Positions 23,658 to 59,302 of a DNA stretch of 64,000 nucleotides are shown here, piece by piece. The translations under genes were made by a program, and so were the position numbers. The DNA is from Paludibacteraceae bacterium (GTDB lineage Bacteria; Bacteroidota; Bacteroidia; Bacteroidales; Paludibacteraceae), in contig JAGALP010000003.1 in assembly GCA_017625155.1 (NCBI GenBank), forward strand, positions 62,001-126,000, in the 5' to 3' direction. The stretch's first letter is position 1. Each line of letters starts with the position of its first letter. The notes under the pieces were generated by a model. It was not told the DNA's origin. It worked only from the letters and a program-made list of their open reading frames with translations, and ran no database searches.

Positions 23658-23708
23658 CCAATAACCAATAGCCCCGACGGGGCGTCCCATATCCAATATC
23701 CGTTATCC
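23658..23708. repeat. 7-nt-phased element with GC hairpin core (copy 1)
   Basis: Two CCAATAN units, then the core GCCCCGACGGGGCGTCC, then three more CCNNTAT units, all staying in one 7-nt phase across the core. The core GCCCC-GAC-GGGGC is a perfect short hairpin. It lies between the efp terminator and the cca start and aligns with copies at 52328, 57836 and 59261. Confidence 0.82.
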
Positions 23709-23714
23709 AAAGAG

Positions 23715-25115
23715 ATGCTCTCCTCCCACCCTAAAATAGACCTTCCTATCCTTCACCTTGTAGGCGAAGAAGCCGACCGTCTCGGCTTAGAGTGCTATGT
23801 CATTGGCGGGTATGTACGTGATATATTCTTGCATCGCGACAGTACCGACATTGATGTAGTTGTCGTCGGGAGTGGCATTGATCTTGCGCAAGCCGTTGCC
23901 AAACGCCTCGGCAAGGGCGCGCACCTTAGTGTCTTCAAGACCTACGGCACAGCCCAAGTCAAGCGTGGCAAGATAGAACTAGAGTTCGTAGGGGCACGCC
24001 GTGAGAGTTATCAACATGATTCGCGCAACCCTATTGTAGAAGACGGTACATTGGAGGATGACCAGAATCGCCGTGACTTTACTATCAATGCGATGGCTGT
24101 GTGTCTTAATAAAGACCGCTATGGCGAACTGCTTGACCCCTTCGGAGGTATACACGATATGAACGAGTGCACTATCCGCACGCCGCTCGACCCTGATATC
24201 ACCTATAGCGATGACCCGCTGCGCATGATGAGAGCCATCCGTTTTGCTACCCAACTCGGCTTCTACTTAGATAGAGAAACCTTCGATTCCATCGAGAGAA
24301 ATCGCGAACGAATCAAGATCATCACCAAAGAGCGCATTGTAGAGGAACTCAACAAGATCATGCTCTCGCGCAAGCCATCTGTGGGGTGGATATTGCTCGA
24401 CAAGACAGGGCTCCTTCCGCTGATTTTCCCCGAACTATCCGCACTCAAAGGCGTAGAGACCAAAGACGGCAAAGGACACAAAGATGTGTTCTTTCATACC
24501 CTGCAAGTGTTGGATAATCTTGCGATGAAATCGGACAATTTGTGGCTTCGTTGGGCTGCATTGCTACACGATATAGGCAAACCTAAATCCAAAGCATGGG
24601 ATGACCATGCGGGCTGGACTTTCCGCAACCATAACTATCTCGGCGCAAAGATGATTCCTCGTATCTTCAAGACCATGAAGATGCCACAGAACGAGAAGAT
24701 GCAGTATGTTATCAAGATGGTGGACCTGCATATGCGCCCAATCAATCTCATCGAAGATACTGTTACCGATTCCGCTGTTCGCCGTCTATTGTTTGAGGCA
24801 GGTGATGATATTGATGATTTGATGCTCCTTTGCGATGCCGACATCACTTCCAAGAATGAAGAGAAGGTGCGTCGCTTCCACAAGAACTACGAACTGGTAC
24901 GGCAGAAGATGATTGAACTGGAGGAGAAAGACCGTATCCGCAATTTCCAACCGCCTGTGCGTGGCGAAGAGATTATGCAGCTATTGAATCTCGAACCTTG
25001 TGCCCGTGTGGGCGAACTCAAAAACGCAATCAAAGACGCCATACTCGACGGCATTATCCCCAACGAGTATGAGGCAGCCAAAGCATATTTAATGAAGATA
25101 GCTAACCCAGAGTAG
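23715..25115 (+). CDS. cca: CCA tRNA nucleotidyltransferase with HD domain
   Basis: A 466-residue class II polymerase-beta-like nucleotidyltransferase. The N-terminal catalytic core has GGYVRDIFLHRDSTDIDVVV with the metal-binding DxD; RNRRDFTINAMA and the neck RIVEELNKI follow. An HD domain lies near residues 255-350 (LLHDIGKPKSK around residue 284). The enzyme should add or repair the 3' CCA of tRNAs; both tRNA genes here lack an encoded CCA, which fits. It is followed by nadB after 2 nt. Confidence 0.93.
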   Translation: MLSSHPKIDLPILHLVGEEADRLGLECYVIGGYVRDIFLHRDSTDIDVVVVGSGIDLAQAVAKRLGKGAHLSVFKTYGTAQVKRGKIELEFVGARRESYQHDSRNPIVEDGTLEDDQNRRDFTINAMAVCLNKDRYGELLDPFGGIHDMNECTIRTPLDPDITYSDDPLRMMRAIRFATQLGFYLDRETFDSIERNRERIKIITKERIVEELNKIMLSRKPSVGWILLDKTGLLPLIFPELSALKGVETKDGKGHKDVFFHTLQVLDNLAMKSDNLWLRWAALLHDIGKPKSKAWDDHAGWTFRNHNYLGAKMIPRIFKTMKMPQNEKMQYVIKMVDLHMRPINLIEDTVTDSAVRRLLFEAGDDIDDLMLLCDADITSKNEEKVRRFHKNYELVRQKMIELEEKDRIRNFQPPVRGEEIMQLLNLEPCARVGELKNAIKDAILDGIIPNEYEAAKAYLMKIANPE

Positions 25116-25117
25116 TT

Positions 25118-26716
25118 ATGAAAAAGTATGATTTTCTCATCATCGGTGGCGGTGTAGCGGGCATGAGTTTCGCGCTCAAAGTAGCTCGCACACAGAAGTA
25201 TCGCATTGCACTCTGTTGCAAGACGACCCTCGAAGAAACCAACACCAGCCGTGCGCAAGGCGGTATCGCCAGTGTGACCAACATGCTCGTAGATGACTTC
25301 GAAAAGCACATCCACGACACTATGGTAGCAGGCGACTGGCTCAGCGACCCTGCTGCGGTGGAGCAAGTGGTGCGTCAAGCACCTAAGCAGATAGAGGAAC
25401 TGGTCAATTGGGGCGTGAACTTCGACAAGAAAGCTGACGGCACGTTTGACCTTCACCGCGAAGGCGGTCACTCCGAGTTCCGTATCCTCCACCATGCCGA
25501 CGACACGGGTGCAGAGATCCAACGTGGACTCATGGCTGCGGTGCGCGCTAACCCATATATTGACGTATTGGAGAATCACTTTGCTGTAGAGATTATCACC
25601 CAACACCATTTGGGTGTACGTGTTACTCGTCGCACACCAGACATTGAATGCTATGGCGCATATATCCTCAATCCCGAGACGGGAAAGATCGATACCTATT
25701 TGAGCCGTATCACGTTGATGGCTACAGGTGGAACGGGAGCAGTGTATGCTACGACCACCAATCCGAATGTGGCGACGGGCGACGGCATCGCGATGGTGTA
25801 TCGTGCCAAAGGTCTGGTCAAAGACATGGAGTTTGTGCAGTTCCACCCAACGGCACTGTATAACCCCACAGAGACGCACCCTGCCTACCTCATCACCGAG
25901 GCGATGCGTGGTTATGGTGGTATTCTCCGCCTGCCTAATGGCGAGGAGTTTATGCAGAAATACGATGCACGTCTCTCGCTTGCGCCGCGCGACATCGTGG
26001 CACGTGCTATCGACAACGAGATGAAGATTCACGGTCTTGACCATGTCTGCCTCGATGTTACCCACAAAGACCCCGAAGAGACCAAACACCACTTCCCCAA
26101 TATCTACGCCAAGTGCCTCAGCATAGGCATTGATATCACGAAAGAGTATATTCCAGTAGCTCCATGTGCGCACTATATGTGTGGCGGTATCAAGGTGGAC
26201 TTGGATGCGCAATCCACTATCCGCCGCTTGTATGCGGTGGGTGAGTGCAGTTGCACGGGCTTGCATGGTGGTAATCGCTTGGCTTCTAACTCCCTCATCG
26301 AGGCAGTAGTCTATGCAGATGCGGCAGCCAAACACTCACTCAGTGTGATTGAAACTTACGATTTCAACGAGAATATCCCCGACTGGAACGACGAAGGCAC
26401 CATGACCAATGAGGAGCATGTGCTTATCTCGCAAGACATGCGCGAGGTCGGTCAAGTCATGTCCACATATGTGGGTATTGTCCGCAGCGACTTGCGCTTG
26501 CGTCGTGCATGGGAGCGCCTCGACTTGCTCTATGAGGAGACCGAAGACCTCTTCAAACGCGTCAAAGCTACCAAGGATATCTGCGAACTGCGTAATATGA
26601 TCAATGTGGGTTATCTGATTACCCGCCAAGCATTGGAGCGCAAAGAATCCCGTGGCTTGCACTACACCATTGACTATCCCAAAAGCCCCGACACCAATAA
26701 CAACGAAGTGTGGTAA
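25118..26716 (+). CDS. nadB: L-aspartate oxidase
   Basis: A 532-residue flavoprotein that oxidises aspartate to iminoaspartate, the first step of de novo NAD synthesis. FAD-binding LIIGGGVAGMSFALKVA is at the N-terminus; SRAQGGIASV, RGYGGILRL, the HYMCGGIKVD capping segment and GGNRLASNSLIEAVV are typical of NadB. It lies 2 nt after cca, so the two are probably co-transcribed. NadA and NadC are not in the window. Confidence 0.95.
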   Translation: MKKYDFLIIGGGVAGMSFALKVARTQKYRIALCCKTTLEETNTSRAQGGIASVTNMLVDDFEKHIHDTMVAGDWLSDPAAVEQVVRQAPKQIEELVNWGVNFDKKADGTFDLHREGGHSEFRILHHADDTGAEIQRGLMAAVRANPYIDVLENHFAVEIITQHHLGVRVTRRTPDIECYGAYILNPETGKIDTYLSRITLMATGGTGAVYATTTNPNVATGDGIAMVYRAKGLVKDMEFVQFHPTALYNPTETHPAYLITEAMRGYGGILRLPNGEEFMQKYDARLSLAPRDIVARAIDNEMKIHGLDHVCLDVTHKDPEETKHHFPNIYAKCLSIGIDITKEYIPVAPCAHYMCGGIKVDLDAQSTIRRLYAVGECSCTGLHGGNRLASNSLIEAVVYADAAAKHSLSVIETYDFNENIPDWNDEGTMTNEEHVLISQDMREVGQVMSTYVGIVRSDLRLRRAWERLDLLYEETEDLFKRVKATKDICELRNMINVGYLITRQALERKESRGLHYTIDYPKSPDTNNNEVW

Positions 26717-26774
26717 ATTTTAATTTTCTAATGCTTGTATTTTTTTACTGACACCTCTTTTTTTACCTCTCACT

Positions 26775-27542
26775 TTAATTATATCCACGGACGATGCCTC
26801 GTGGCGAGCCTTTGACGAAGTCAAGGATAAGGTCGCGTTCGGGGCTTTGTGGCAAGGTGGTCTCAATCTGCTCTACTGCTTGGCTGACGTTCAAGCCAGA
26901 GAGATATAGGATGCGATAGGTGTTTTGGATAGCTGTAATCTGCTCTTGGGTGAACGCACGGCGATTGAGTCCTACAGAGTTGATACCGCAATAGGAGATT
27001 GGTTCGCGCGCTGCGATGATGAATGGAGGTACGTCCTTATTAATCTTTGAGCCACCTTGAACCATCACATGTGCACCGATATGCGAGAACTGGTGCACTA
27101 GACTACCGCCACCGATGATAGCCCAATCCTCTACCACTACCTCGCCTGCGAGTTGGGTAGCATTGGACATGATGATATGGTCGTGCAAGAGGCAATCGTG
27201 CGCCACATGGCAATATGCCATGATAAGGCAGTGGTTGCCTACCACCGTTTTGCCTTTAGAGGCAGTACCGCGATGGATAGTCACGAACTCACGGATAGTG
27301 GTGTTATCGCCAATGATGGCATATGTCTTTTCGCCTTTGAACTTGAGGTCTTGTGGATCGCCACCAATGACTGCGCCCGAATAGATATGGCAGTTTTTGC
27401 CGATACGAGTACCGCTGTAGATGGTGACATTATTGTCAATCACGGTACCTTCGCCAATCTCTACATCCTCGTGGATGCAAGAGAAGTGTCCAACCGTTAC
27501 AGATGGATGAAGTTTAGCTTCAGGATGAATAAAATTGGTCAT
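26775..27542 (-). CDS. lpxA: Acyl-ACP-UDP-N-acetylglucosamine O-acyltransferase
   Basis: A 255-residue left-handed beta-helix acyltransferase that performs the first step of lipid A synthesis. Hexapeptide repeats run from residue ~8 to 185; the catalytic-His region is around AYCHVAHDCLLHDHI and the ruler region near NKDVPPFIIAAREP. It lies 42 nt downstream of lpxC on the same strand, in the usual lpxC-lpxA order, but with no fabZ domain in between. Confidence 0.95.
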   Translation of the reverse strand: MTNFIHPEAKLHPSVTVGHFSCIHEDVEIGEGTVIDNNVTIYSGTRIGKNCHIYSGAVIGGDPQDLKFKGEKTYAIIGDNTTIREFVTIHRGTASKGKTVVGNHCLIMAYCHVAHDCLLHDHIIMSNATQLAGEVVVEDWAIIGGGSLVHQFSHIGAHVMVQGGSKINKDVPPFIIAAREPISYCGINSVGLNRRAFTQEQITAIQNTYRILYLSGLNVSQAVEQIETTLPQSPERDLILDFVKGSPRGIVRGYN

Positions 27543-27557
27543 TTTATTGTAGTTTTA

Positions 27558-27582
27558 AAAGTTTCAAAGTTTCAAAAGTTTC
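27558..27582. repeat. 8-9 nt AAGTTTCA repeat between lpxC and lpxA
   Basis: Three AAAGTTTC-type units in tandem fill most of the 42-bp gap between the lpxC stop and the lpxA start. It is related in word to the stem of the efp terminator (AAGTTTCAA). It occupies the place where a fabZ-coding region lies in most relatives. Confidence 0.7.
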
Positions 27583-27584
27583 AG

Positions 27585-28487
27585 TTATTGCATTACTAAT
27601 TGGCGTAGGCGTTTTGCGCATTGGGTGTTGAACGTGTGACCAGGGCGCAAAGCAGCAATCTTACCTTGAATACGGCAGCCTAGCAGCGACATGTCGCCGA
27701 TGAGGTCTAGCAACTTGTGGCGCGCTGGCTCGTTGGGGTAGTTCAGCGGACTGAGATAACCCAACTTGTTGGCATCTAAGCGTGGCTGCCCCAGTTTGTC
27801 GGTCATGTAGTCCAATCCCTCTTGTGACATAGGTGTCTCATAGATGACGAGGGCATTCTGTAGGTCGCCACCTTTGATGAGTCCCATGCGTAGCAATGGT
27901 TCGATCTCGCGTACAAAGCAGAATGTGCGTGCTGCGGAGAGTTCGCGTTTGTAATCAGCCAGATCTTTAATCTCTGCACTCTGTTCGCGCAAGATACCGC
28001 TTTTATCATAAGCGATTGTTACCCCAGCTTCGTAGTGGTCGCATGGCTGGATTACCATCTTGTTGCCTCGCTCGGAGATATATTCGATAGGCTCGGTAAC
28101 AACGAATACTTTTTGCTCTGCTTCTTGCTCTTGCAAGCCCACTTTTTCGATGGCTTGGATATAATATTTCGCGCTACCGTCTAAGATAGGCATCTCTGGT
28201 GCATCCACCTCAATGAGGCAGTTGTCCACGCCCATAGCATAGAGAGCAGATAGTGCATGTTCTACGGTGGACACTTTCCATGCACCACGCTCTAGCACGG
28301 TGCCGCGTTCGGTGGCAGTGACATAGTCAGCAATAGCTTCGTAGGTAGGACGGCCATCAAGGTCAGTACGACAAATGCGCACACCAGTATTCTCCTCTGC
28401 AGGGAGGAAGTTAGCATGGATAAATAGTCCGGTATGTAATCCTTTTCCTTCGAAGGAGAAAGGAGCTTTTAATGTATGTTGTTTCAT
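27585..28487 (-). CDS. lpxC: UDP-3-O-acyl-N-acetylglucosamine deacetylase, stand-alone
   Basis: A 300-residue zinc deacetylase, the committed step of lipid A synthesis. Zinc ligands are in STVEHALSAL (near residue 78) and PARHKLLDLIGDMSLLG (His and Asp near residues 235-240); the catalytic His region is near GHTFNTQCAKRLRQL at the C-terminus. In most Bacteroidetes LpxC is fused to FabZ (about 460 residues); here the protein stops after the LpxC part. Its own promoter lies upstream and lpxA downstream. Confidence 0.95.
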   Translation of the reverse strand: MKQHTLKAPFSFEGKGLHTGLFIHANFLPAEENTGVRICRTDLDGRPTYEAIADYVTATERGTVLERGAWKVSTVEHALSALYAMGVDNCLIEVDAPEMPILDGSAKYYIQAIEKVGLQEQEAEQKVFVVTEPIEYISERGNKMVIQPCDHYEAGVTIAYDKSGILREQSAEIKDLADYKRELSAARTFCFVREIEPLLRMGLIKGGDLQNALVIYETPMSQEGLDYMTDKLGQPRLDANKLGYLSPLNYPNEPARHKLLDLIGDMSLLGCRIQGKIAALRPGHTFNTQCAKRLRQLVMQ

Positions 28488-28539
28488 CTTTTTAGTTTTA
28501 TTTTGCGCATACTATACCAATATAGTATGAATTTCGCTG

Positions 28540-28570
28540 CAAAGGTACAACAAAAAATGCATATTTGCAA
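28540..28570 (-). promoter_or_regulatory. Promoter of lpxC-lpxA
   Basis: Minus-strand TTG (28568-28570), 20-nt spacer, TACCTTTG (28540-28547), about 52 nt before the lpxC ATG. Confidence 0.8.
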
Positions 28571-28761
28571 GCAAAATTGCGGAAAGTTCACTTTCGACGC
28601 TATTTTAAAGGCAAATGAGCTGCATTATGCGATAGTATCAAGATATTTCATATTTTTGCTCCCTGTTTTGCATACTAGCTGTGGAATTAAGATTTCTGCC
28701 CATTAAAGTAAGTAGGTGTAGTATTCGTATATAATTTCTTTTCTTTAATCTCCCTGTAATA

Positions 28762-28850
28762 TTTCCCTTTTAATTACGTACCATATACGTATGATATACG
28801 TACTATATACGTAGGATACACGTAAGATAATCGGGTTAAAAAGAAAGGAA
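28762..28850. repeat. TACGTA-array element, copy 1
   Basis: Five TACGTA-type palindromic sites start at 28775, 28786, 28797, 28808 and 28819 (the last CACGTA), exactly 11 bp apart. Arms TTTCCCTTTTAA on the left and TTAAAAAGAAAGGAA on the right are inverted repeats. 28771-28850 aligns without gaps with 46821-46900, 72 of 80 positions identical. Arm differences between the copies preserve pairing. No coding potential. Confidence 0.85.
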
Positions 28851-28865
28851 CACCGAAATATAGCG

Positions 28866-28928
28866 CACTCAACCAACTACAAGCGCGTAGCGCCAATCTT
28901 CAGCGAAGTGATCTACCAACTACCCCCT
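28866..28928. repeat. Possible degenerate GC-core repeat
   Basis: ACCAACTAC occurs twice (near 28872 and 28915) flanking a self-complementary GCGCGTAGCGCC and an AGCGAAG word. It sits next to the TACGTA element, as the 46922 core element does beside copy 2, and could be a degenerate member of the same family. Confidence 0.35.
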
Positions 28929-28935
28929 ACACTAG

Positions 28936-28961
28936 AAAAATCGCACTAAAATGCGATTTTT
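28936..28961. terminator. Hairpin with A/T flanks before the ncRNA promoter
   Basis: AAAAATCGCA and TGCGATTTTT form a 10-bp stem with a short loop; A-run and T-run on the two sides would allow termination in either direction. The 28963 promoter begins immediately after it. Confidence 0.6.
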
Positions 28962-28962
28962 C

Positions 28963-28993
28963 TTGCACACCTGCAAATTTTTCTGTACCTTTG
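28963..28993 (+). promoter_or_regulatory. Promoter of the structured RNA / BspA leader
   Basis: TTG at 28963 and TACCTTTG at 28986 with the invariant 20-nt spacer. There is no ORF for more than 400 nt downstream, so the primary product is a non-coding leader or RNA. Confidence 0.8.
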
Positions 28994-29314
28994 CAACCGA
29001 ATCCTACGCTGGAGGGAAATATGTCCTGCGAAAAGTGTTTCGCAAAGGTTCTTTCTTGGGGTAGGTTTTTGACATGTTTAAATAGCGTTTATTGACGCTT
29101 TGCATTTGGCAATCAGAAAACTTCGCAACTTTTCAAACACAGTCAAAATCAAAGTAATCAGTAGATGCCTATGGGTATGATTATATCTATGCTACATTTC
29201 TCTCGGGTGTAGTGTGTTTTCATACCAGCGTAGGTTTCCTGTTGTTTTATTTGACTGTGTGGGCAATGCGAAGGCCTCTGATTGTGAATAAGCAACGGAG
29301 GTCTGCGCTTTTTT
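28994..29314 (+). ncRNA. Unidentified structured RNA or attenuator leader, ~320 nt
   Basis: Transcribed from the 28963 promoter to a terminator at 29268-29314. Helices seen by eye: 29003-29012 with 29225-29234 (10 bp, perfect), 29017-29025 with 29071-29079 (9 bp, one G-U) enclosing a 7-bp hairpin 29027-29044, hairpin 29084-29099, and 29137-29147 with 29250-29260 (11 bp, perfect). The first and last long-range helices cross, giving a pseudoknot or two alternative folds. 29110-29117 also pairs perfectly with 29277-29284, inside the terminator's left arm and loop. It does not match tmRNA, RNase P, 4.5S or E. coli 6S landmarks. It could be an independent RNA or a cis-leader of the BspA-type gene 100 nt downstream. 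Confidence 0.65.
29268..29314 (+). terminator. Terminator of the structured RNA, upstream of BspA-type gene
   Basis: GCGAAGGCCTCTG (29268-29280) pairs with CGGAGGTCTGCGC (29296-29308), 12 of 13 positions counting G-U, followed by six T. It is the strongest intrinsic terminator in this intergenic region and lies about 100 nt before the BspA-type start codon. Confidence 0.8.
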
Positions 29315-29416
29315 GTATGATGTCATAAACCCTAATAACTCCTATTGGAGTACTCCGACTTATTTGACTAATTCAACTAATTAAACAATAATATTAACTC
29401 TTAAAATCAAACAATT

Positions 29417-31744
29417 ATGAGAAAACTTTTATTTCTTTTTGTGGCACTCCTCGCTACAACATGCCTTTGGGCGTATGATTTCCAAGTAGGTAATTTGTAT
29501 TACTCTGAAACTCCAGAGGTTTCAGCCACAGGGATTAAAGGCTCTAAGTTTTGGCCAATCCAAGTAGATGAAAGTATTGTAACTAAGAATCGGAGAAAAA
29601 TGGTTGCTGACTTTCGCCCTAATGATGCAGGAAGACGCCTTTACGTATGGGATGGTACATACATAATTAATGAAAACCCTACAGGTTCAAACTTTCATGG
29701 TAATGATGAAAGTTATCTTGCTTTGCTAGTAGGTTTTTCGGGCTGGGCTGGTTGTGGCTATTGTCTCACTGCAACCGATCGTAACAGATCTTGGCAGAAT
29801 GCAGTAACTCTCCTTAATGATATTGTCGCGAATCCAGATGACTACTATCTTCATATGGCAATAAAATCCAACGACAATGCATCACACTGCTTCTATATTT
29901 TTGGTTCTGAAGCTACTAAGTTTGTTATTGGTTCTACTCCTGTTTACGATGGCCCTATCTATGCAAATTTCAGACGTAATGGTGACTGGGCTGAGTTCGA
30001 CATCCCAATGTCACGCTTCGCCACTGCTCTATCTACTATTACTTGTGCTCCTGGCGTAAATATATTCGCAGCATTATCAGAGAATATTGCAGGTGCACAA
30101 CTAAATTTGGATGCTGTTTATTTTTACAAGAAAACGGACATAGATAATGATACCACACCTAATTACGCCACACTTACAGGTGCAGTTGACAATCTTACTT
30201 CCATTACCATCCCCGAAACCATCACCTATGAGGGAACGACCTACAGCGTAACGGGTATTGGAAATTCTGCTTTCTATCAATGCATCTCCCTCACCTCCGT
30301 CACTATCCCTAACAGCGTAACAAGCATTGGAGAAAGTGCTTTCGAGAATTGATTCTCCCTTAACTCTATCACTATTTCTAACTCCATAACAAGTATTGAG
30401 AGGTTGGTATTCGGAAGTTGCGATTCACTCACTTCCATCACCATCCCTAATAGCGTAACAAGTATTGGAGAGCAGGCTTTTTATGGCTGTAACACCCTTA
30501 CCTCCATTACCATCCCTAACAGCGTAACGAGTATTGGAGAGCTTGCTTTTGCAGTCTGTCCTACCCTTACTTCCATCACCATCCCCAACAGCGTAACGAG
30601 CATTGGAGAGCGTGCGTTATCGGAGTGTTATTTCTTAAAAACAAATTTTATTAATAACAGTTCATTAAATGCAGAAGAAAATAATTATTGGGGTGCAACT
30701 TTTGTTGATCAGGATATTGATGGATTGCTCATTCGCAACGATACAGTTATTAAATGTAGGCGATTAGCTTCCTCTATCACTATTCCCAACACTATAACGA
30801 GAATTGAGGATGTAGCTTTCGCTTATTGTGGCAATCTCACCTTCATCTCTATCCCCAATAGTGTAAAGAGCATCGGAGATGATGTTTTCTTAGGAGCTCG
30901 ATCCTTAACATCAATTGTTTGGGATGTAACGGAATGGAGCAATCCAAATTCTAATTCTCCTTTTTCAGATTCTAAGACAAGTATTACTTCTTTTACATTT
31001 GGAAATCATGTAAAGCATATTCCTTCCTATATCTGTTATGAGATGGAAAATCTACCTATGGTTAATATCCCCAATGCTACAAAATCAATAGGAGAAAACG
31101 CCTTTGCAGGTTGTTCAAAACTGCAAGAAGTATATTGTTATGCGGTAGAACCTCCTACTGTGTATGAATCATCTTTCTCACAATACAATGCATTTTTGTA
31201 TATCCCTTGTGAAAACAAAAAGGCATATATGTTAGATGAGGTGTTTGGTAATTTCAAATATATAGAATGTATTTCTTCTGACGAAGTTAAAACAAATGAT
31301 GTAGTCATTACCCCTACAACTAATGATGTCACCATTATATGGCCAACAGAAGGCAATGCGGATAGCTATACTATTGTTATTAAGAAAGACGATGAGGTAT
31401 TCTGCACCCTTACCTTCAACGCCGATGGTCAGTTGCTCAACATCGCTTTTGCTCCAGGTCGCGATGGTAATCACCCAGTACAATATGCCGAGCAAGCAGG
31501 TAATGGTTATCGCTTTACGGTGACAGGATTAGAAGAAGCAACAACTTATACCTATGAGATCATTATCAAAGATGTTGCCAACAAAATCATCAAGTCACAT
31601 TCAGGTGAGTTTACTACCCAATCCATAACGGCTGTAGATAATATCCAATCGTCAATAGGCAATACCCACAAACTCCTTCGCGATGGTCAACTCATCCTTC
31701 TCCGTGATGGAGTAGAGTACACTATCATGGGACAAGAATTGTAA
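29417..31744 (+). pseudogene. BspA-like leucine-rich-repeat secreted protein, interrupted by in-frame TGA
   Basis: One frame of 775 codons with a single TGA at 30350-30352; the parts before (311 codons) and after are in the same frame and continue the same repeat. Signal peptide MRKLLFLFVALLATTCLWA, a ~200-residue beta-rich region (about 35-235), then BspA/LRR_5 repeats with SLTSITIPNSVTSIGE-type units of ~23 residues, an Fn3-like domain (about 620-735), and the tail HKLLRDGQLILLRDGVEY. The TGA falls where neighbouring repeats have Cys (AF-x-x-C-x-x-L). TGA is a normal stop elsewhere (porW, DUF5606), so this is a nonsense mutation, a sequence error or a readthrough site. If functional, it would be a T9SS-exported surface adhesin. 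The start ATG 29417 directly precedes the signal peptide. Confidence 0.85.
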
Positions 31745-31764
31745 TTTGTTACGAGAGTTTATAA

Positions 31765-31783
31765 GACGGCGCAAGCGCCTACT
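31765..31783. repeat. GC palindrome shared with 46934
   Basis: GACGGCGCAAGCGCCTAC contains the perfect hairpin GGCGC-AA-GCGCC. The reverse complement of 46934-46952 reads GACGGTGCAAGCGCCTG, nearly the same. It lies just after the BspA-type stop. Confidence 0.55.
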
Positions 31784-31793
31784 ATTTAGAAGC

Positions 31794-31824
31794 AAGTGCG
31801 GGTAATTTGCCCGCACTTTGTTTT
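31794..31824. terminator. Terminator after the BspA-type gene
   Basis: AAGTGCGGG and CCCGCACTT form a perfect 9-bp stem with a 7-nt loop, followed on the plus strand by TTGTTTT. It separates the gene from the convergent radical SAM gene. Confidence 0.75.
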
Positions 31825-40072: not shown

Positions 40073-41035
40073 GGTGGCAATGACATAGGAGAAGAGGACG
40101 CCCATGAACATCACGAACTTGAGGACTTGTTGCACCGTGCGGAATTCACGAGGGGTCTTAGCAAACCATAGAAGCACCAACACACATACCAATGGCACCA
40201 GCAATCCGAACACTAGATAACGGCAAGTGAAGGTGTTCCAAGCAGCAGGGAAAGGCAATACCGCCCAACCAATATAAGCAATCAACGCCATGATACCTAC
40301 CACCAAAGCAGTGACGATAATCTTGGTCCACTTTTCGCCCCAAACAATAGGCAGCGTGCGACACTCCATCTCACGGTCGCCCTCGATATCCTCGATATCT
40401 TTGACCATCTCACGGGCTAAAGTCATCAAGAAAGCAAACACCGCAAAACCACTAAGCCATATATAGAGTTCGCCCACGATAGGAGTGTAAGCAAGCGTTT
40501 CGCCATAGAGGTGACGAAGGTGGTCGGCATTCACGATAGCTACCAACAATGGTACGATAGCCGAAGCAAAAGCCACTACCAAGTTGCCGACTAAGAACAT
40601 ACGCTTGTAGCTAGCCGAATAGAACCACAACAGTCCAGGAATGACGATATAGATAAAGAGTAGCGTCCAACTGCGTGCCCACCACGATACGACTCCGCCG
40701 CAGACAATGCCTACAGCAGTAAGCACCTGGAACATGAGCATAGCCGCATCGCGAGAGATAACACGAGTGACAATCAAGTCATCGGGACGATTGATACGGT
40801 CGATCTTGACATCGAAATAATCGTTGATGACATATCCCCCCGCAGCAATACATACTACGCTGAGAATCAGCAATGTGAGTATCCACCAAGGCATCTGCTC
40901 GGAGAATAGCGCACGCTGCAATAGCGGCGTTGCCACCCAATACTCCATCACAAAGAGCAAGATTGCCAAAAAGCCCAGATTGCCCACACGGAGCAACTTG
41001 AGATAGGGTTTGATGATTTCTGCTAAGCGTTTCAT
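40064..41035 (-). CDS. UbiA family prenyltransferase
   Basis: A 323-residue membrane protein with about eight to nine hydrophobic segments. The first Asp-rich motif NDYFDVKIDRINRPDD lies near residue 70 and the second DIEDIEGDRE near residue 213. The Bacteroidetes versions are often annotated as geranylgeranylglycerol-phosphate geranylgeranyltransferase-like, but acceptor and prenyl donor cannot be decided here. It lies between maf and the GH13 gene. Confidence 0.85.
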   Translation of the reverse strand: MKRLAEIIKPYLKLLRVGNLGFLAILLFVMEYWVATPLLQRALFSEQMPWWILTLLILSVVCIAAGGYVINDYFDVKIDRINRPDDLIVTRVISRDAAMLMFQVLTAVGIVCGGVVSWWARSWTLLFIYIVIPGLLWFYSASYKRMFLVGNLVVAFASAIVPLLVAIVNADHLRHLYGETLAYTPIVGELYIWLSGFAVFAFLMTLAREMVKDIEDIEGDREMECRTLPIVWGEKWTKIIVTALVVGIMALIAYIGWAVLPFPAAWNTFTCRYLVFGLLVPLVCVLVLLWFAKTPREFRTVQQVLKFVMFMGVLFSYVIATNL

Positions 41036-52262: not shown

Positions 52263-52280
52263 TCAAGCAAACCTAAAATA

Positions 52281-52318
52281 AAAAAATGGGCTTCCTCTTT
52301 CGAGGGAGCCTATTTTTT
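52281..52318 (+). terminator. Terminator after the 1702-residue gene
   Basis: AAAAAATGGGCTTCCTC and GAGGGAGCCTATTTTTT pair (G-U allowed) around TTTC, ending in a T-run, about 20 nt after the stop. Confidence 0.85.
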
Positions 52319-52327
52319 ATTCTCGCC

Positions 52328-52376
52328 ACTAAACACTAAACACTAAACAATAGCCCCTCTAGGGCGTCCTCTAAAC
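52328..52376. repeat. 7-nt-phased element with GC hairpin core (copy 2)
   Basis: Three exact ACTAAAC units, a 21-nt core (three 7-nt steps) containing AGCCCCTCTAGGGCGTCC, then TCTAAAC resuming in the same 7-nt phase. The core hairpin is GCCC-CTCTA-GGGC. Intergenic, between the terminator and the next promoter. Confidence 0.88.
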
Positions 52377-52405
52377 AAAAAAATCGCTATAATAGCGATT
52401 TTTTT
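52377..52405. terminator. A/T-flanked hairpin before the 52404 promoter
   Basis: AAAAATCGCTAT and ATAGCGATTTTT form a perfect stem with T-run and A-run flanks, bidirectional. It abuts the -33 box of the next promoter, as the similar hairpin at 28936 does. Confidence 0.65.
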
Positions 52406-52434
52406 GCATATTCTGCAAATTTTTACTACCTTTG
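52404..52434 (+). promoter_or_regulatory. Promoter of the secreted beta-repeat proteins
   Basis: TTG at 52404, 20-nt spacer, TACCTTTG at 52427, 39 nt before the ATG at 52473. Confidence 0.8.
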
Positions 52435-52472
52435 TCGCCTAATTTGGAGTATTAGTGTTATTAAGTATGTAT

Positions 52473-55142
52473 ATGAAAAAAATCTTTTTGCTTCTCTTCC
52501 TGTTGGTTGCGGTATGTGGCAGCACGAGTGTTTATGCTCAAATGGTAGAAGAAATCGAATTTGAAATAACCAACAAAGAAGTGCAAGGTACTGGTCGATA
52601 TGCTAACCTTGTACTGTATGGTCAGCACGATACATATGGTAAGATTACCATTTATCTCAACGAATACAATGGTAGCTACAAAACATACGAGGTATATTAT
52701 GCCACCCTCGGCAAACTCAATCTTACTGGCTCTGCCCAATGGAGCAAAGACGGCAATGTGGAGATATTAGATGCCAACCTCTCTACCGCACCATTCGACA
52801 AAGAACCTACTGCAGAAGACCAGGTGTTTCACATCATTGGCACCTACACACCACAAGAGATTGTCACACTCAACTTCTCTGGCTTCAGCCAATTTGGCTA
52901 TGACAGCAATTACAAAGATTGGTTTATGCGCATGGAAGGTACCGACCCTGGTAAACCTGAATATGGCTACAGACTGGAGCTTGCCTACTATGCCCCTGCC
53001 TACAATGGATTCGGCACTTTCACCACTGCCAACAATGACATCAACATGGCAGATACACATCTCCAAACACCTTCGGGATATGTAATGTTTGATAGTGTGA
53101 CGCTCACAGTGGAGCAGAAAAAAGTCAGCGACAACCTTACTCAAACAATTGCTAATGCTACACTCTTAGGTGAAGATGGTGTAACCTATATCGTTACGTG
53201 TGTCCACAATAGCATCACACCTACACAGCAAATCACAGCAGTAATTACCAATACCTCCTTATCTCGCAACGAAGACTCCTTCACGCTTGATGGAATGAAT
53301 GATAACGCCGAAGCTACTATCACTATCAAGAGCAACAAGTTAGTCGGCAAATATGCAATGAAGCAGATTGATTTGCAGCAAAGCTATTTCTTCTATAATG
53401 AGGAAAAACTAGATATTCTATCCATTCAAGCAGAAGTGGCCACTGAACTCAAGAATAATAATCTGGCATGTATCGCCAATGTGGCTCTTCTCACGCGCGA
53501 TACTATATTATATGTCTTCAAAATGACACATACTTTCTCTGCACCCACCGACTCTGTAGAATTTAAGGCCACCAACCTCATTATCAATGATGCGTTGTCA
53601 GAGGAATTGGGTGTAGTCAGCTTCGATGCCAAGAACGAGCAATACATCCTTTCTGGTGCGTGGATGGCTACCGAAGCAGAAGAAGGGACCTACTCAAAAG
53701 AGGATGTAACCATCGAATTGCAAGATGTACAAAACAATACAACTATCCATTCTTTAGATGCTACGCTGCATGTGAAGATGGATAATTCTTCCCATTGGAC
53801 CATCACGGGTACAATGCGAGGCGATGATAATGTGGTATATAATCTAGATCTATCGTATGTCGTGCCAACGCCTCAAGATACGGTGATGGTACGCTTCAAT
53901 CACTCAGCCATTGCCACTTTCACCCCAGATATGAACAATGACCTGTTCTTCGAGAACAAAGATGAGCACTATTATGCTTCTATCAATATTCGCGGTGTGG
54001 AGATGGGTAGTGCATTCTCTTTGCAAAATGTGGATAGAGATTATTGTGGTGTGAAGGACTCTATTACAGGTAAATACACCGAACTAGCAGACATCAATGG
54101 TCGCATCTTCCAACTTGGTGATACCACCATTATGCAAGCTGAGCTCATCAGCATGGATGCTACGCTCTATGACATAGAGTTGTGGTATGTAGTGCCTACA
54201 CCTATTGACACGGTTACGCTCTCTTTCCCAGTAGAATTTGGAGACCTGCGAAACGAAGAAGGCTATTACCAACTATATGGCCCATCATTGGATACAACCT
54301 ATATTGTGGCATTCAGCCCGCTCTCTGATGAAATTGAAGGTACTTTTGTCTATGACGGTATGTTTGGCAAGTTCGGTGCAGAAGGTGGACGTATGGAAAT
54401 GGAGTACCGCAATACCTATATTGCCAAGATGGAGGGTGACTACGTGACAGCTATTATGCCACTGGAGAAGGGAAAAATGACAGTCACCATGGACGTGGAT
54501 GGCAATATCACCGCGGTCGCTGAAGCCATTTGTGCAGATAGCGTATATTATCATATCACCATGACCGCTCACTACGAGCGCGAATACCTGCGTGGCGATA
54601 TGCCTTTCGGCTCAATAGAGCGAACATATACGGCTGCCGATATTTTGTCCACCATGGATAAATCCGAAGAGGAAGGATGGATATACCTTGCTGTCGGAGC
54701 AGCCGACCAGTCTGACCTTATGGCGATGCACTTCTTTGTGGACTCTACCGATGCGGATATCCTTATCCCTGAAGGCGAGTACAAAATCAACAAGTCCTTC
54801 CGACCAGGAACAGTACTCGGCAATGCAGGACCTAATGACCAAAACCAAATATCTACTCCTTTCTATGCAACTGTTGATAATCTAGGTTATTTGACCAATA
54901 TCTATATGTGGGTAAAAGGTACGGTGACTGTAGCGAAGAAAGACGGCAAACTCTACCTCGAAGTCAATGCTCTCAACTCCTATGATGTTCCCATACACAT
55001 TATATATGATGGTTCAATATCAACTTCACTCCCCAATATCCAATATCCAGTATCCAATACCCATAAAATCATCCGTAATGGTCAACTGATTATCCTCAAA
55101 GATGGTGCCGAGTACAATGCACAAGGCATGAAATTGCAATAA
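52473..55142 (+). CDS. Secreted protein of repeated beta domains with T9SS-type tail
   Basis: An 889-residue protein from ATG 52473 (MKKIFLLLFLLVAVCGSTSV, cleavage after VYA). The rest is a series of ~110-130-residue beta-rich domains, each ending near a connector of the type VPTPxDTV (e.g. VVPTPQDTVMVRF, VVPTPIDTVTLSF). The first domain (YANLVLYGQHDTYGKITIYL) resembles a domain of the 1702-residue neighbour (YLQLMGRNDMEDADVMLFLN). A linker of 7-nt-repeat origin precedes the tail HKIIRNGQLIILKDGAEYNA. No known family was recognised and no catalytic residues are evident; a surface structural or binding role is inferred. Confidence 0.78.
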   Translation: MKKIFLLLFLLVAVCGSTSVYAQMVEEIEFEITNKEVQGTGRYANLVLYGQHDTYGKITIYLNEYNGSYKTYEVYYATLGKLNLTGSAQWSKDGNVEILDANLSTAPFDKEPTAEDQVFHIIGTYTPQEIVTLNFSGFSQFGYDSNYKDWFMRMEGTDPGKPEYGYRLELAYYAPAYNGFGTFTTANNDINMADTHLQTPSGYVMFDSVTLTVEQKKVSDNLTQTIANATLLGEDGVTYIVTCVHNSITPTQQITAVITNTSLSRNEDSFTLDGMNDNAEATITIKSNKLVGKYAMKQIDLQQSYFFYNEEKLDILSIQAEVATELKNNNLACIANVALLTRDTILYVFKMTHTFSAPTDSVEFKATNLIINDALSEELGVVSFDAKNEQYILSGAWMATEAEEGTYSKEDVTIELQDVQNNTTIHSLDATLHVKMDNSSHWTITGTMRGDDNVVYNLDLSYVVPTPQDTVMVRFNHSAIATFTPDMNNDLFFENKDEHYYASINIRGVEMGSAFSLQNVDRDYCGVKDSITGKYTELADINGRIFQLGDTTIMQAELISMDATLYDIELWYVVPTPIDTVTLSFPVEFGDLRNEEGYYQLYGPSLDTTYIVAFSPLSDEIEGTFVYDGMFGKFGAEGGRMEMEYRNTYIAKMEGDYVTAIMPLEKGKMTVTMDVDGNITAVAEAICADSVYYHITMTAHYEREYLRGDMPFGSIERTYTAADILSTMDKSEEEGWIYLAVGAADQSDLMAMHFFVDSTDADILIPEGEYKINKSFRPGTVLGNAGPNDQNQISTPFYATVDNLGYLTNIYMWVKGTVTVAKKDGKLYLEVNALNSYDVPIHIIYDGSISTSLPNIQYPVSNTHKIIRNGQLIILKDGAEYNAQGMKLQ
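55034..55068 (+). repeat. 7-nt repeats encoding the linker before the tail
   Basis: CCAATAT, CCAATAT, CCAGTAT, CCAATAC, CCATAAA in 7-nt phase inside the coding sequence, just before the C-terminal tail, encoding PNIQYPVSNTHK. Same word as the intergenic elements at 23658 and 57836. Confidence 0.82.
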
Positions 55143-55176
55143 ACGATACAACAAACCATAATTAATTTTTTTAACA

Positions 55177-57744
55177 ATGAAACGTTTTTTCACATTTTTC
55201 ATGGTGGCTGCCATATCTCTGACAGCAGTTGCACAAGCAACATGGACCACCAAACCACAAGCCCTAAAGTCGCTGATGGCTACAGAGCGCTTGAGCAACA
55301 CTATCAAGGCGCTCCAACAACCAGAACCTCAGCAGGCTACACTTGCAGATGAACCTACATGGACCCAACATGACACGACTGAAGTCATCTTTAGATCATT
55401 CTACGATGATCCTATCTACTATCCTGTTGAAATATTCACAAATAGATATGGTGAATTGGATACTACTGGAGGCGATTGGTATATCACACTTCACAACGAC
55501 CGCTATCAATTCATCTTTGACATCTATGGTGCATCTCCTGAAACTCCTGCAGGTACTTATACCAAAGAAGACCTCGATGAATGGTACTCTTGGTGTATGT
55601 TCCCAGAAGCAAATGGCAAAACCCACTACTACAAAACTTGTGAACTGACAATCCAAGAGGAGAAACTAAGTGAAAGCCTTATTAAATTTACCTTGGATGC
55701 CGTTATGCTGGTTACCAAAGGTATTGGTGGCGAAGAGTATGGTTACTTCAAGGTGCACGCAGAGCATACTATCATCCGACCACTAGTCAAATACGATGTG
55801 GCTATCTTAAATTGTGTGGTAACTCCAGAAGAAGACCGTGTGCGTATTGCTGGTAAGAACGACACCATGGATGTGGACTTGACCTTCTTCACCGAGACAG
55901 GTGTTGTTGGCTATTATAGCCACAAAATCATGGATACCGAAAATGCCAAACTGGTGCATCGCGGTGTATCCTACGAGATTATGGATCTTGAGGGTGTTAT
56001 CTACAGCTCACCTAATGAGGCGGGGGGTGTTTCCTATGTATTCATGTTCGAGGCGTTGACTACTGACGCTAGCTTCTACAATGTCGCTATGGAGGCACCT
56101 ATTGTGCCTACAGATACAGTAGAATTTACATGCAACAACATGCTCATTGACGATAGTTATGGCATGTCCGATGCCACTATCCTCATCACTGCTAGCAATG
56201 CCAACTATGAGATCATGGCGGGATACAATGCCAACCGAATCACATCTCCTGCTACTTATTCAGGCGACCAAGCATATATGTACCTCACAGATCGTAAAAC
56301 GGGCAAAGAACTTACCTCTATGATATGTACCATTGAGGTTAGTGGCAACGCACTCAAGGGTTATCAAGTAGAGATTGAAATGCTCGGTACCGATCACAAA
56401 TACTATATCATGCACCTCATTTATGGTGTAGAAGAAGCAAGATCACTTGACCTCAATTTCACCAATTCGGCTAAGTCCTATTTCTATATTGATCCACTCG
56501 GCTCAAAGGAGGTACAACTAGCTAATTACAATGGTGAGTATTCAGTTGCATTTGACATCTTCCAGATCGACCAAGTAATAGAAATGGGTGGCGACTTCGA
56601 GCGTATCAATCTGGCTATGGAGCAAACATTCATCACCCACCATACGAAAGATGCGAATGGTTTGCCTGAGGATATCGCTGTAGATTTTGCAGAAGTATCA
56701 GGTAATGTTTTCCAACGTAACGACACCACCTTCCTTACCGCTTCCGTACTTGGTTTCGACTCATGCCGATACAATATCTCTATGTTCTACGCCGTACCTA
56801 CTCCTATCAAGACTGTCACTTGTACCTTTGATGGACTCGCCAACGAAGAAAATGTAGAGTTTATCAACTCCTTGTCTAGTGGCATCTTCATCCTTGATGG
56901 TATGAGTGAAGATGGTTTGTTAACGGCAAAAGTCAATGTAGAACGTATCAAAAGTGGTAGCGTCGAAGGTACTTTCTACAACGATGGTAAGTTCGACCAC
57001 AACGACTTCTATGCCATCGATACATATGTCCGAGAGTGGAATCCAACTACTAATAAAGACGATGAGTTCTCCGTACAAAAGGGTACAATGACCGTCACCG
57101 TAGAAAATGGTATCCTCACTGCGGTAGCATCATTTATTTGTGACAATGCAGTGCAATATGACCTGACATTCAAGACTAAATTTGTTCGTGAGCGTATTCA
57201 ATTTGATACCGAAGAGGGAAAAATGGATTATACCTTCCCTACAGACGCAGAGGTTATTGTGCACGATTTTATAGATGGATATGGTATGATCCAATTGATT
57301 ATTGCCGATGAATCTTACGCCGTTGACTTCTATTTCAATGCGGATGCTATGGATTCTGTCATCGGTGTACCTGCTGGCGTATATCCTATAGATGGTTCAT
57401 TTGAGTCAGGTACAGTGCTAGCTTGCAAAGGTATTCTTCCTGATGGTCCTGCACAATCATACTTCTGCGGCTTGGATGCTGAGGGATACCTTGATCCACT
57501 GCAATTATATTGCCTCGTAGATGGTACTGTAATAGTTGAGAATATCAATGGCAAACTCAAAGTAGAGGTAGATGCAGTTAACTCATACGATGTACCTGTC
57601 GTTCTGCATTACAATGCAGCTGCTACTGCTCTAGAGGATATCACGACCGAACAGGTGGGTACACAAAAGCGTCTCCTCAATGGTCAGCTTTACATCATCC
57701 TCAATGGTCAAACATATACTGCCACTGGTAATATCGTAAAATAA
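55177..57744 (+). CDS. Secreted paralogue with repeated beta domains and T9SS-type tail
   Basis: An 855-residue protein with signal peptide MKRFFTFFMVAAISLTAVAQ, then repeated beta-rich domains related to those of the 52473 gene: connectors APIVPTDTVEFTC and AVPTPIKTVTCTF, and a late domain ending EVDAVNSYDVPVVLHYN, parallel to NALNSYDVPIHIIYD in the neighbour. The tail is QKRLLNGQLYIILNGQTYTA. It starts 34 nt after the 52473 gene with no promoter between, so both are probably one transcript ending at 57793-57830. Function unknown. Confidence 0.78.
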   Translation: MKRFFTFFMVAAISLTAVAQATWTTKPQALKSLMATERLSNTIKALQQPEPQQATLADEPTWTQHDTTEVIFRSFYDDPIYYPVEIFTNRYGELDTTGGDWYITLHNDRYQFIFDIYGASPETPAGTYTKEDLDEWYSWCMFPEANGKTHYYKTCELTIQEEKLSESLIKFTLDAVMLVTKGIGGEEYGYFKVHAEHTIIRPLVKYDVAILNCVVTPEEDRVRIAGKNDTMDVDLTFFTETGVVGYYSHKIMDTENAKLVHRGVSYEIMDLEGVIYSSPNEAGGVSYVFMFEALTTDASFYNVAMEAPIVPTDTVEFTCNNMLIDDSYGMSDATILITASNANYEIMAGYNANRITSPATYSGDQAYMYLTDRKTGKELTSMICTIEVSGNALKGYQVEIEMLGTDHKYYIMHLIYGVEEARSLDLNFTNSAKSYFYIDPLGSKEVQLANYNGEYSVAFDIFQIDQVIEMGGDFERINLAMEQTFITHHTKDANGLPEDIAVDFAEVSGNVFQRNDTTFLTASVLGFDSCRYNISMFYAVPTPIKTVTCTFDGLANEENVEFINSLSSGIFILDGMSEDGLLTAKVNVERIKSGSVEGTFYNDGKFDHNDFYAIDTYVREWNPTTNKDDEFSVQKGTMTVTVENGILTAVASFICDNAVQYDLTFKTKFVRERIQFDTEEGKMDYTFPTDAEVIVHDFIDGYGMIQLIIADESYAVDFYFNADAMDSVIGVPAGVYPIDGSFESGTVLACKGILPDGPAQSYFCGLDAEGYLDPLQLYCLVDGTVIVENINGKLKVEVDAVNSYDVPVVLHYNAAATALEDITTEQVGTQKRLLNGQLYIILNGQTYTATGNIVK

Positions 57745-57792
57745 TTAATTCGATCTAAAAGTTCTAGTTCCTCTAGACTATCTTGACTCCAT

Positions 57793-57830
57793 AAAAATAG
57801 CGTGGTTCAAAAGTGAACCACGCTATTTTT
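57793..57830. terminator. Strong bidirectional terminator
   Basis: AAAAATAGCGTGGTTCA and TGAACCACGCTATTTTT form a perfect 17-bp stem around a 4-nt loop between convergent genes. A- and T-runs allow termination on both strands. Confidence 0.9.
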
Positions 57831-57835
57831 ATCAA

Positions 57836-57877
57836 CCAATATCCAATAGCATAGCGGGTATCCTATAACCCGTAACC
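57836..57877. repeat. 7-nt-phased element with GC core (copy 3) over the Omp28-like stop
   Basis: CCAATAT, CCAATAG, then a degenerate core CATAGCGGGTATCC, then TATAACC and CGTAACC, in one 7-nt phase. On the minus strand it encodes the last four residues (GYGL) and the TAG stop of the Omp28-like protein. Confidence 0.75.
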
Positions 57878-59257
57878 AAGAACGTTATACCATTTGCCAT
57901 TTTTCTCTATCAACAACTGCCCTTCACGCAGCACCTTTCTCACTCCTGAACTCCTGAACCCCTGAACTCCTAAACTCTCTACATCCTCCACTCCTGTCGC
58001 CGCTGGCGAAAAATCATACACCGCCGTCGCGGTTACCGTTGTGCCGTTGTATGTCGTGAAGGTCAGTGATACATTGCCATTCTCATCCAGCACCATCTCA
58101 CCCTTGCTCATACGCCACATATGTATTGGAGTCACAATACCCTTCTTCAAATCTGTGGATAGCGCATACACCAATCTTGACCCTCCCAAAGTCCCCTCCT
58201 CATCCACTCGATAACCTGCTGTGATTGTACCCTCGTGGTTGCCATCTTGAATAGAATAGGTACTAGGCACCAGTATGCTATCCTCTGTATTTACATACAC
58301 GAAACCTACTTGTTTGCAGACGCCTTTATAACTAGACATTGTTTTATTAGATACCATCTGAACTTCCAATACATCATCCTTCAACTTCGTCACGCATACA
58401 CTATCAAAACTGATACTTGTGCTAGGACCTTTGGCTTCAGTGATGCCATACGGACCATACTGCTCGCCGCCTTCTGTACCTGCTACCACAGCCACCTGCT
58501 CTGCGTTGATAATTGGCTGTTTTTCTAGCGATGTCAGATATGCCACCACACAGCAATTCTCTGCTACCCAATCCTTATCCATCGTGTAAGTTGTCGAATA
58601 ACTATATGCTTGATTCTCCACCTTTACCGTATCACCAAAAGTGCCATTCACAAAGTCGCGAACCACACGAGGATGCATATATTCTAACCAATTGGCCTTT
58701 TTCCATGAGGTAATCTGATCTGCCTGCTTACCCACTAATCGATTCTCCTTAATTAATATAGTGAGCAGATATGCTGTTCTATCTACATTAGCTACCTGTC
58801 CACTCACCGTTATAGCCAATTGGCGAGTCTTATTGTTATATGTATGCTCTATCTCTACCGATGCCTCGGCCACTGTATCACCTTCTGCCACTCGTCCTTC
58901 AGCTACCCATGTCGCCAAATCTGTTGCTGCACGAACTTCCAACCTTCCACTTTGTTCTGTGCGATTAAATACCACACTTGGTACATTATAAATCCCCATA
59001 AAGTTCTTCGCTAGTTCATCGTTTTCAGGGAGTGTATATTCATCTGTGCCATATATAGCATGATAACTTACCCAGATGTAGGGGGTGGTTTGCTGATTCA
59101 AATATGCTACTATATTTTGCATACCCATCGGACATTCATAGCAATTAGCACTTGTAAAGTGTTCCATCAAGAACTTACGAGGAAAAGATGTCGGCACTTG
59201 TTGTACCGACATTCCCATCGCTGCCAGTAGCAGCAAGTATATCAATATTCTTTTCAT
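57863..59257 (-). CDS. Omp28-like secreted thioredoxin-fold protein with T9SS-type tail
   Basis: A 464-residue protein: signal peptide (MKRILIYLLLLAAMGMSVQQ), then an Omp28-type thioredoxin fold with LMEHFTSANCYECPMGMQ (CxxC at about residues 39-42), a central beta domain, and a C-terminal region ending in RKVLREGQLLIEKNGKWY. The linker before the tail (ESLGVQGFRSSGV) is encoded by 8-nt repeats at 57942-57977, and the final residues by the element at 57836. It is inferred to be an exported surface or periplasmic redox-type protein. No promoter consensus was found upstream. Confidence 0.8.
   Translation of the reverse strand: MKRILIYLLLLAAMGMSVQQVPTSFPRKFLMEHFTSANCYECPMGMQNIVAYLNQQTTPYIWVSYHAIYGTDEYTLPENDELAKNFMGIYNVPSVVFNRTEQSGRLEVRAATDLATWVAEGRVAEGDTVAEASVEIEHTYNNKTRQLAITVSGQVANVDRTAYLLTILIKENRLVGKQADQITSWKKANWLEYMHPRVVRDFVNGTFGDTVKVENQAYSYSTTYTMDKDWVAENCCVVAYLTSLEKQPIINAEQVAVVAGTEGGEQYGPYGITEAKGPSTSISFDSVCVTKLKDDVLEVQMVSNKTMSSYKGVCKQVGFVYVNTEDSILVPSTYSIQDGNHEGTITAGYRVDEEGTLGGSRLVYALSTDLKKGIVTPIHMWRMSKGEMVLDENGNVSLTFTTYNGTTVTATAVYDFSPAATGVEDVESLGVQGFRSSGVRKVLREGQLLIEKNGKWYNVLGYGL
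57942..57977 (-). repeat. 8-nt repeats encoding the linker before the Omp28-like tail
   Basis: ACTCCTGA, ACTCCTGA, ACCCCTGA, ACTCCTAA, in 8-nt phase, within the coding sequence directly upstream of the C-terminal tail. Confidence 0.8.
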
Positions 59258-59260
59258 TAG

Positions 59261-59302
59261 CCTTTAACCCATAACCTATAGCCCGCAGGGCGTCCTATAG
59301 GT
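59261..59302. repeat. 7-nt-phased element with GC hairpin core (copy 4) over the pullulanase stop
   Basis: CCTTTAA, CCCATAA, CCTATAG, then the core GCCCGCAGGGCGTCC, then TATAGG. The hairpin is GCCC-GCA-GGGC-like. It fills the 37-bp gap between the Omp28-like and pullulanase genes and supplies the last codons and TAG stop of the latter. Confidence 0.82.

Follow-up and report, generated by a model that had tools for sequence, protein, structure and literature searches.

Heptanucleotide repeats are known from cyanobacteria as short tandemly repeated repetitive (STRR) sequences. Among hairpin repeats, the CGTC-tagged repetitive extragenic palindromes (REPs) are portrayed in their defining paper (Di Nocera 2013, PMC3733652) as having stems of 8–9 bp whose first two pairs are A-T, loops of 4–5 nt and, opposite the tag, an unpaired CCA-like tail. 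Head-to-head dimers prevail there, head-to-tail dimers are negligible and clusters are rare; the same paper counts Bacteroidetes among the phyla it names and gives no known transposase. Here we analyze repeats from a 64,000-nt stretch of DNA (the window) of a Paludibacteraceae bacterium (GenBank assembly GCA_017625155.1, contig JAGALP010000003.1, positions 62,001 to 126,000; genome G000 in our set). They are members of a family found throughout the genome, short hairpins of free sequence on a fixed linker, which in gut Bacteroidales lie both between genes and in frame within enzyme loops. A preliminary description had reported four intergenic copies in the window, built of 7-nt words around a kept hairpin core. 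All four sequences are present at their positions, and a family with a kept foot, a changing word and a likeness to REPs is supported by the analysis below, whereas a fixed core is not, and copies also lie outside intergenic DNA.

Hairpin units and their arrays

In the G000 assembly (1.61 Mb, 62% complete), the core pattern TAGCCC-N2..8-GGGCGTCC has 24 copies (14 forward, 10 reverse), against none for the reversed control pattern, and thus extends beyond the four places first noticed. The flanks of these copies show that this core is one form among several. The real unit consists of TA, a variable hairpin with G as its first and C as its last base and a loop usually of 3–5 nt, and the foot GTCC. 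Stem and loop both vary, and the variants include GCGAAGC, GCCCGCAGGGC, GGCGGAACGCC, GCTCGCAAAGCGAGC, GCGGCTCTGCCGC, GGCACTGTGTGCC and GCCCACATGGTGGGC. The first of these, GCGAAGC, we take to be the known extra-stable mini-hairpin of 7 nt.

Pairing was analyzed in tandem units from four genomes, which were delimited by GTCC..TAG....GTCC alone, with no pairing required. The 222 units contain 119 distinct cores, at odds with the notion of a single hairpin kept between copies. Cores of 11 nt account for 68 units, those of 13 nt for 41, of 7 nt for 28 and of 15 nt for 23; a 7-nt phase running through the core, previously described for three of the window copies, needs a 13-nt hairpin and, applying to 41 of the 222, is not the rule. 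Among units of at least 9 nt, 164 of 191 pair at both inner positions. When the arms were shuffled 1000 times between units of equal length, the mean was 88 and the maximum 102. When distinct cores only are counted, 81 of 108 pair (shuffles: mean 40, maximum 54). Where paired, the stems comprise 2–7 bp with G-C as the outer pair, in cores mostly of 7–15 nt. In G034, a genome without the GTCC family, none of the four units with the tandem pattern pairs.

The units are arranged head to tail, with 166 neighbor pairs on the same strand and 2 on opposite strands, in arrays that reach 12 units. They are joined either directly (GTCC, two bases and TAG; GTCCNATA) or through 7-nt words such as CCAATAT, CCTATAA and CTCTAAA. 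The 7-nt periodicity seen in the four window copies recurs around 140 arrays of four genomes, mainly on their upstream side: in the 35 nt before the arrays, identity at lag 7 is 0.43–0.46, against 0.18–0.31 at other lags, and downstream it is weak (0.29–0.35). The word before the first hairpin, tabulated for 142 arrays, is CCAATAG in 55, CCTATAG in 23 and CCCATAG in 18, and ends in GTAG in 31.

An unbiased census of the flanks of GC hairpins returned TAG..CGTC as the most enriched pair in each of four sampled carriers (37 vs 1.3 expected, 140 vs 6.6, 47 vs 1.8 and 37 vs 1.3). The same census did not place it among the 16 hairpin flanks listed for G034, where hairpins flanked by CCT..AGGG are enriched (18 vs 1.1 expected). 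A looser finder for single units gave 21 single matches in 400 kb of G034; since this genome lacks the family, single units must in part be chance matches.

Arrays inside genes and between species

In four genomes (G000, G014, G126, G119; 1.49 Mb in all), the reading frame was followed across 146 arrays, the stretches of the last three genomes having been selected for containing matches. Beforehand, 25 doubtful singles out of 171 arrays had been filtered out; one single-unit array that was kept (L057:11594) is probably a chance match. Fifty-two of the arrays lie within one protein alignment without a frame break, 34 of them in sense and 18 in antisense orientation. Ninety had no homolog in the set spanning both sides, and four are apparently frame-shifted, which a reading by eye places between genes. 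The best matches behind the 52 in-frame cases include eight in which the same gene was fetched again (RecQ, AroA) and one match to a distant paralog (25% identity); in several cases the matching ortholog bears an array itself.

In the genes aligned, in-frame arrays coincide with places at which the loops of the orthologs are short or variable. The hosts named by Pfam, from nine proteins scanned, are EPSP synthase, RecQ helicase, an M16 peptidase, a MutY-like glycosylase (HhH-GPD and NUDIX_4), a MutS2-like protein (MutS_V and Smr), the tRNA pseudouridine synthase TruA, serine dehydratase alpha, an M20 peptidase and an aldehyde dehydrogenase. Both RecQ arrays fall into gaps of the alignment with E. 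coli RecQ (1oyw), one preceding MALTATA and the other preceding VVATVAFGMG. The EPSP synthase of G014 carries three arrays at three places, where the loops are shorter in most of 28 other aligned orthologs. An insert of this kind would simply be translated, yielding a hydrophilic peptide such as NSEASNSPQGVQYPIGGTPS, NSEASNSPQG or PIGGTPSNSEAS.

The two RecQ loops were compared in 17 genomes, with repeat classes set by eye. At site 2, G000 has a single unit, G119 has two, and G185 and G014 have three each, the last unit being shared. Elsewhere in the clade the same loops contain 7-nt GGCGAGA words (G063, G078, G103, G120, G185), 8-nt GTTCAGGA words (G082, and G105 together with a hairpin), a hairpin together with GTTTCAA words (G131) or an in-frame CTCCCTAAAGGGAAGGGAG-like palindrome (G025, G103, G131, G132). 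In G126 (L330/L343), the gene is broken at the repeat-filled loop of site 2, which has 179 nt and an internal stop, and both halves are otherwise open.

Hairpins within genes, and this broken RecQ in particular, might suggest that intragenic copies are bypassed by the ribosome or spliced out, comparable to the byp elements of yeast mitochondria. We consider this extremely improbable, as the tract in G126 belongs to a different word family and the gene may be a pseudogene, an assembly error or something stranger. Translational bypass was rejected since protein alignments run through the 52 arrays without leaving the frame, the four apparent shifts look intergenic by eye and 32 of 33 RecQ loop lengths are multiples of three, site 2 of G126 being the exception.

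In 53 orthologous units, taken from 30 of 40 ortholog pairs, 26 of 514 stem positions, 37 of 176 loop positions, 2 of 318 foot positions and 539 of 4510 flanking positions differ, the size of the contrast being uncertain because the same species recur among the pairs and because pairing in one of the two sequences was the basis on which units were chosen. Conserved stems and feet, as well as the intergenic copies beside genes, would be expected of sites bound by a nucleoid protein or another DNA-binding protein, or of RNA hairpins that tune expression, retained for their usefulness. Such a role is rather improbable, given that presence and unit number differ at the same place between close species, that many copies are situated in the middle of genes, on both strands, and that a search of four array-rich stretches totalling 80 kb gave no Rfam match.

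The clearest case of movement comes from G014, where a four-unit array of 98 nt occurs, 94.9% identical, in two open frames on separate contigs (L054:3403 and L058:9274). Since the flanks are unrelated, the array was copied between sites. Dispersal is based on this one clear copy event together with the spread of the family. The same genome also contains a repeat of 120–160 nt (AATCGGGGCCCCCGCGAGCTTCGTGAGCGAG...) joined to arrays, which is 95–98% identical between two contigs (L048, about 5826–5984, and L056, about 16210–16370).

Sister linkers and the copies in the window

In other genomes, EPSP synthase loops show the same design with other linkers, namely GGTCTTACA in G065, GGTCTGTCA in G002 and GATCTACA in G063, on hairpins that include GCGAAGC, GCGCAGC and GCCCGAAGGGC. 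In the loci scanned, a few of which overlap, 440 hairpin pairs share a recurring linker, compared with 28 in shuffled copies; because the real pairs were counted from both strands, this corresponds to about 220 versus 14 per copy. To judge from their letters, GTCCTATA, GATCTACA and GGTCCTACA may be variant forms of a single linker sequence. For the GGTC family, the pairing test could draw on few loci and its result is weak (19 of 32 pair; shuffles: mean 13.4, maximum 19).

Within the genus, 178 genomes were compared: 28 contain the GTCC core, 14 of them in at least five copies, and 77 contain a tandem pattern with the linker GGTCYTRCA, 42 of them in at least five copies. None of the 178 has at least five copies of both (P 0.02, uncorrected for kinship). 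A RecQ tree with 51 rows unites 13 of the 14 GTCC genomes and the weak carriers G078 and G082 in one clade (SH-aLRT 100), outside which eight GGTC rows fall; the fourteenth GTCC genome, G182, from which no RecQ was recovered, is not in the tree. Across 198 genomes of the order, the tandem pattern exceeds its control just in G000 (28 vs 1), the other 197 having at most 6 matches and controls of up to 52. A wide scan of contigs matched at least 120 stretches, and among the matches listed most are lone ones in other phyla; clear arrays of at least two units were seen in two (L102, L137) of five loci inspected, both from Paludibacteraceae.

In the window itself, all copies described here are on the forward strand. 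Element 1 (23658–23708) lies in the gap directly 5' of an open reading frame (ORF) at 23715–25115 and consists of CCAATAA CCAATA, the hairpin GCCCCGACGGGGC (23671–23683), GTCC and CATAT CCAATAT words. By eye, the genes flanking this gap look like efp and the gene of a CCA-adding enzyme. An orthologous copy is present in G126 (L287:11557) and missing at the orthologous gap of G014 (L050). At 23500–23640, in the gap before element 1, G000 has GTTCAA/TTGAAC words and a GCGAAGC hairpin, and G014 and G126 have CTACACCA words; at this one place, word families supplant one another. Element 2 (52328–52376) has ACTAAAC words, the hairpin GCCCCTCTAGGGC (52353–52365), GTCC and TCTAAAC. Element 3 (57836–57877), which had been called degenerate, is indeed so: CCAATAT CCAATA leads into the mini-hairpin GCATAGC, followed by GGGTATCC, a spoilt foot that replaces GTCC, and by CCTATAA-like words, and taken in isolation the sequence folds another way. 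Element 4 (59261–59302) comprises CCTTTAA CCCATAA CCTATA, the hairpin GCCCGCAGGGC (59281–59291), GTCC and TATAGG, and provides the TAG stop of the minus-strand ORF 59295–61292; its orthologous copy in G119 (L289:16293) has flanks that are 97–99% identical.

The identity at lag 7 in the four elements is, in turn, 23/44, 21/42, 21/35 and 16/35 (shuffle p 0.0006, 0.0018, 0.0004 and 0.006), in agreement with the periodicity first proposed. The 8-mer GGGCGTCC by itself is a weak signal because it is seen 4 times in the window against 0.85 expected, with three of the four in the elements and the fourth at 40096; the combination AATAGCCC..GGGCGTCC is seen twice against 0.00 expected. The hairpin energies of the four elements taken alone (z −1.3 to −2.8) are weak evidence.

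An in-frame copy was also found in the window, at 21531–21566 within ORF 21405–21857, where it encodes 12 residues. It reads GA TA-GCGAGGC-ATCC AA TA-GCCGTGAAACGGC-GTCT, with both feet degenerate. Words without a hairpin occur as well: four imperfect copies of CCAATAT at 55033–55062 (forward strand) lie in the reading frame of ORF 52455–55142, close to its C terminus, and further tracts of 7- or 8-nt words (GGGAATC, CACCTTT, CTCCTGAA) are in frame in ORFs at 10747–10790, 22145–22175, 22440–22480 and 57942–57990.

Possible origin and related systems

The resemblance to REPs had raised the possibility of a Y1 transposase as mover. In the draft genomes searched, Y1_Tnp (PF01797) was found neither in G000 (62% complete) nor in the richest carrier, G014 (98% complete), and nine further carriers among the 14 also lack it. 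Weak matches were obtained in 5 of 26 genomes, three of them among the 14 carriers (G126, G105, G025) and two, both without the family, among 12 other genomes (G073, G110); the matches do not track carriage of the family. The weakly matching proteins of some genus members (L317–L321) are open frames of 256–372 aa. REPs of the ordinary kind, mobilized by a RAYT (Y1) transposase, would share the short hairpin and the conserved tag, and the three matching carriers would fit them, yet eleven carriers lack the domain, family-less genomes have it, GTAG precedes the hairpin in just 31 of 142 arrays and the stem sequence varies. We therefore regard this origin as very unlikely.

From the absence of Y1 and of any Rfam match, we hold a REP-like element with a separate mover to be the best account. 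The data above establish the pairing, modularity and dispersal of the arrays, their open frames and their clade limits, whereas the mover, recognition by shape, translation and the part played by linkers in slippage belong to the interpretation. In this tentative reading, which we rate as more probable than slippage and template switching on their own, the elements are a REP-like family of non-autonomous repeats, in which arrays of linkers and hairpins are copied by an agent. Acting on single-stranded DNA, such an agent would recognize the hairpin by its shape and the linker by its sequence, and would copy arrays to new sites. Recognition by shape, perhaps aided by template switching at quasipalindromes, would maintain the pairing of arms that are otherwise free in sequence, and the linkers, as direct repeats, would allow units to be gained and lost through slippage. 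More speculatively, the family could represent a new class of mobile DNA in which the shape of the hairpin alone is recognized and a short linker is the sole sequence signal; shifts in enzyme specificity would then have swapped linkers (GTCCNATA, GGTCYTRCA, GATCTACA) between clades of one genus, and the same enzyme loops would have been recolonized repeatedly.

Alternatively, there may be no dedicated agent: slippage would grow the words, template switching at quasipalindromes would make or perfect the hairpins, and rare templated insertion at breaks would spread the arrays. Template-switch mutation at quasipalindromes is a process studied in E. coli (PMC7202029), direct-repeat linkers fit slippage, and the hairpin-less word tracts in the same genes and gaps, as well as the ragged borders of insertions, speak for this view. 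What such local processes leave unexplained is one linker at many separate sites per genome, specific to a clade, and a foot with 2 changes in 318 positions; we consider them a possible origin, albeit the less probable one.

Several observations weigh against a REP-like family with its own mover. By eye, 15 inspected alignments gave no clean empty site with a target-site duplication, the borders being ragged, and in the best insertion comparison (L285 vs L081, 90% protein identity) some 10–15 nt look replaced, not merely interrupted. Because the same loops hold unrelated words in other species, they may draw repeats for reasons unrelated to hairpins. The low divergence of stems between orthologs is partly built in by the selection for pairing, and the set of orthologous units includes at least one that is mis-paired and one that is probably spurious. 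Moreover, translation of the inserts is deduced from open frames, and no enzyme family other than Y1_Tnp was searched for a mover.

Why palindromes enter genes is an open question on which this family bears, and the CGTC-type repeats have no known mover in their defining paper (PMC3733652). With dozens of species in one genus carrying parallel families, each told apart by its short linker, a search for an enzyme that varies with the linker becomes possible. In RecQ and EPSP synthase, the differing in-frame peptides at the same loops across species constitute a natural experiment in loop insertion and in the origin of new protein segments from repeats.

A literature search of open-licence full texts found no description of this linker-hairpin family. 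Compared with what PMC3733652 reports for CGTC-tagged REPs, our family shares CGTC at one end of the hairpin, the lack of a detected transposase and intragenic copies, with pseudouridine synthases and repair genes among the hosts. On the untagged side, 96 of 142 arrays have CCAATA, CCTATA or CCCATA, words that only partly contain CCA. In contrast to those REPs, our family has stems of 2–7 bp of free sequence with G-C as the outer pair, head-to-tail arrays and 7-nt words, and its sister linkers with GGTC and GATC lack CGTC. Because stem ends, stem length, loops and head-to-head dimers do not match that account, we do not file it as a CGTC-tagged REP, although it may be a relative.

The GTAG REPs of E. 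coli and Pseudomonas that are associated with RAYT, as far as PMC3733652 outlines them, likewise combine a hairpin with a tag and disperse to high copy number, but are unlike our family in the points given above for Y1 and GTAG and in its head-to-tail arrays. The Rickettsia palindromic elements (RPE-4, RPE-6 and RPE-1, in the same paper's outline), compared by description only, are also in-frame palindromes in many unrelated genes; here, however, the hairpin is free in sequence, the array modular and the linker dependent on the species. CRISPR arrays have a similar look of fixed repeats and variable inserts, whereas here the variable part is itself a hairpin. With bacterial heptanucleotide repeats (PMC4692102), the family shares tandem words of 7 nt, but its words run into a hairpin with a fixed foot, and the 7-nt period is lost through most of the hairpins.

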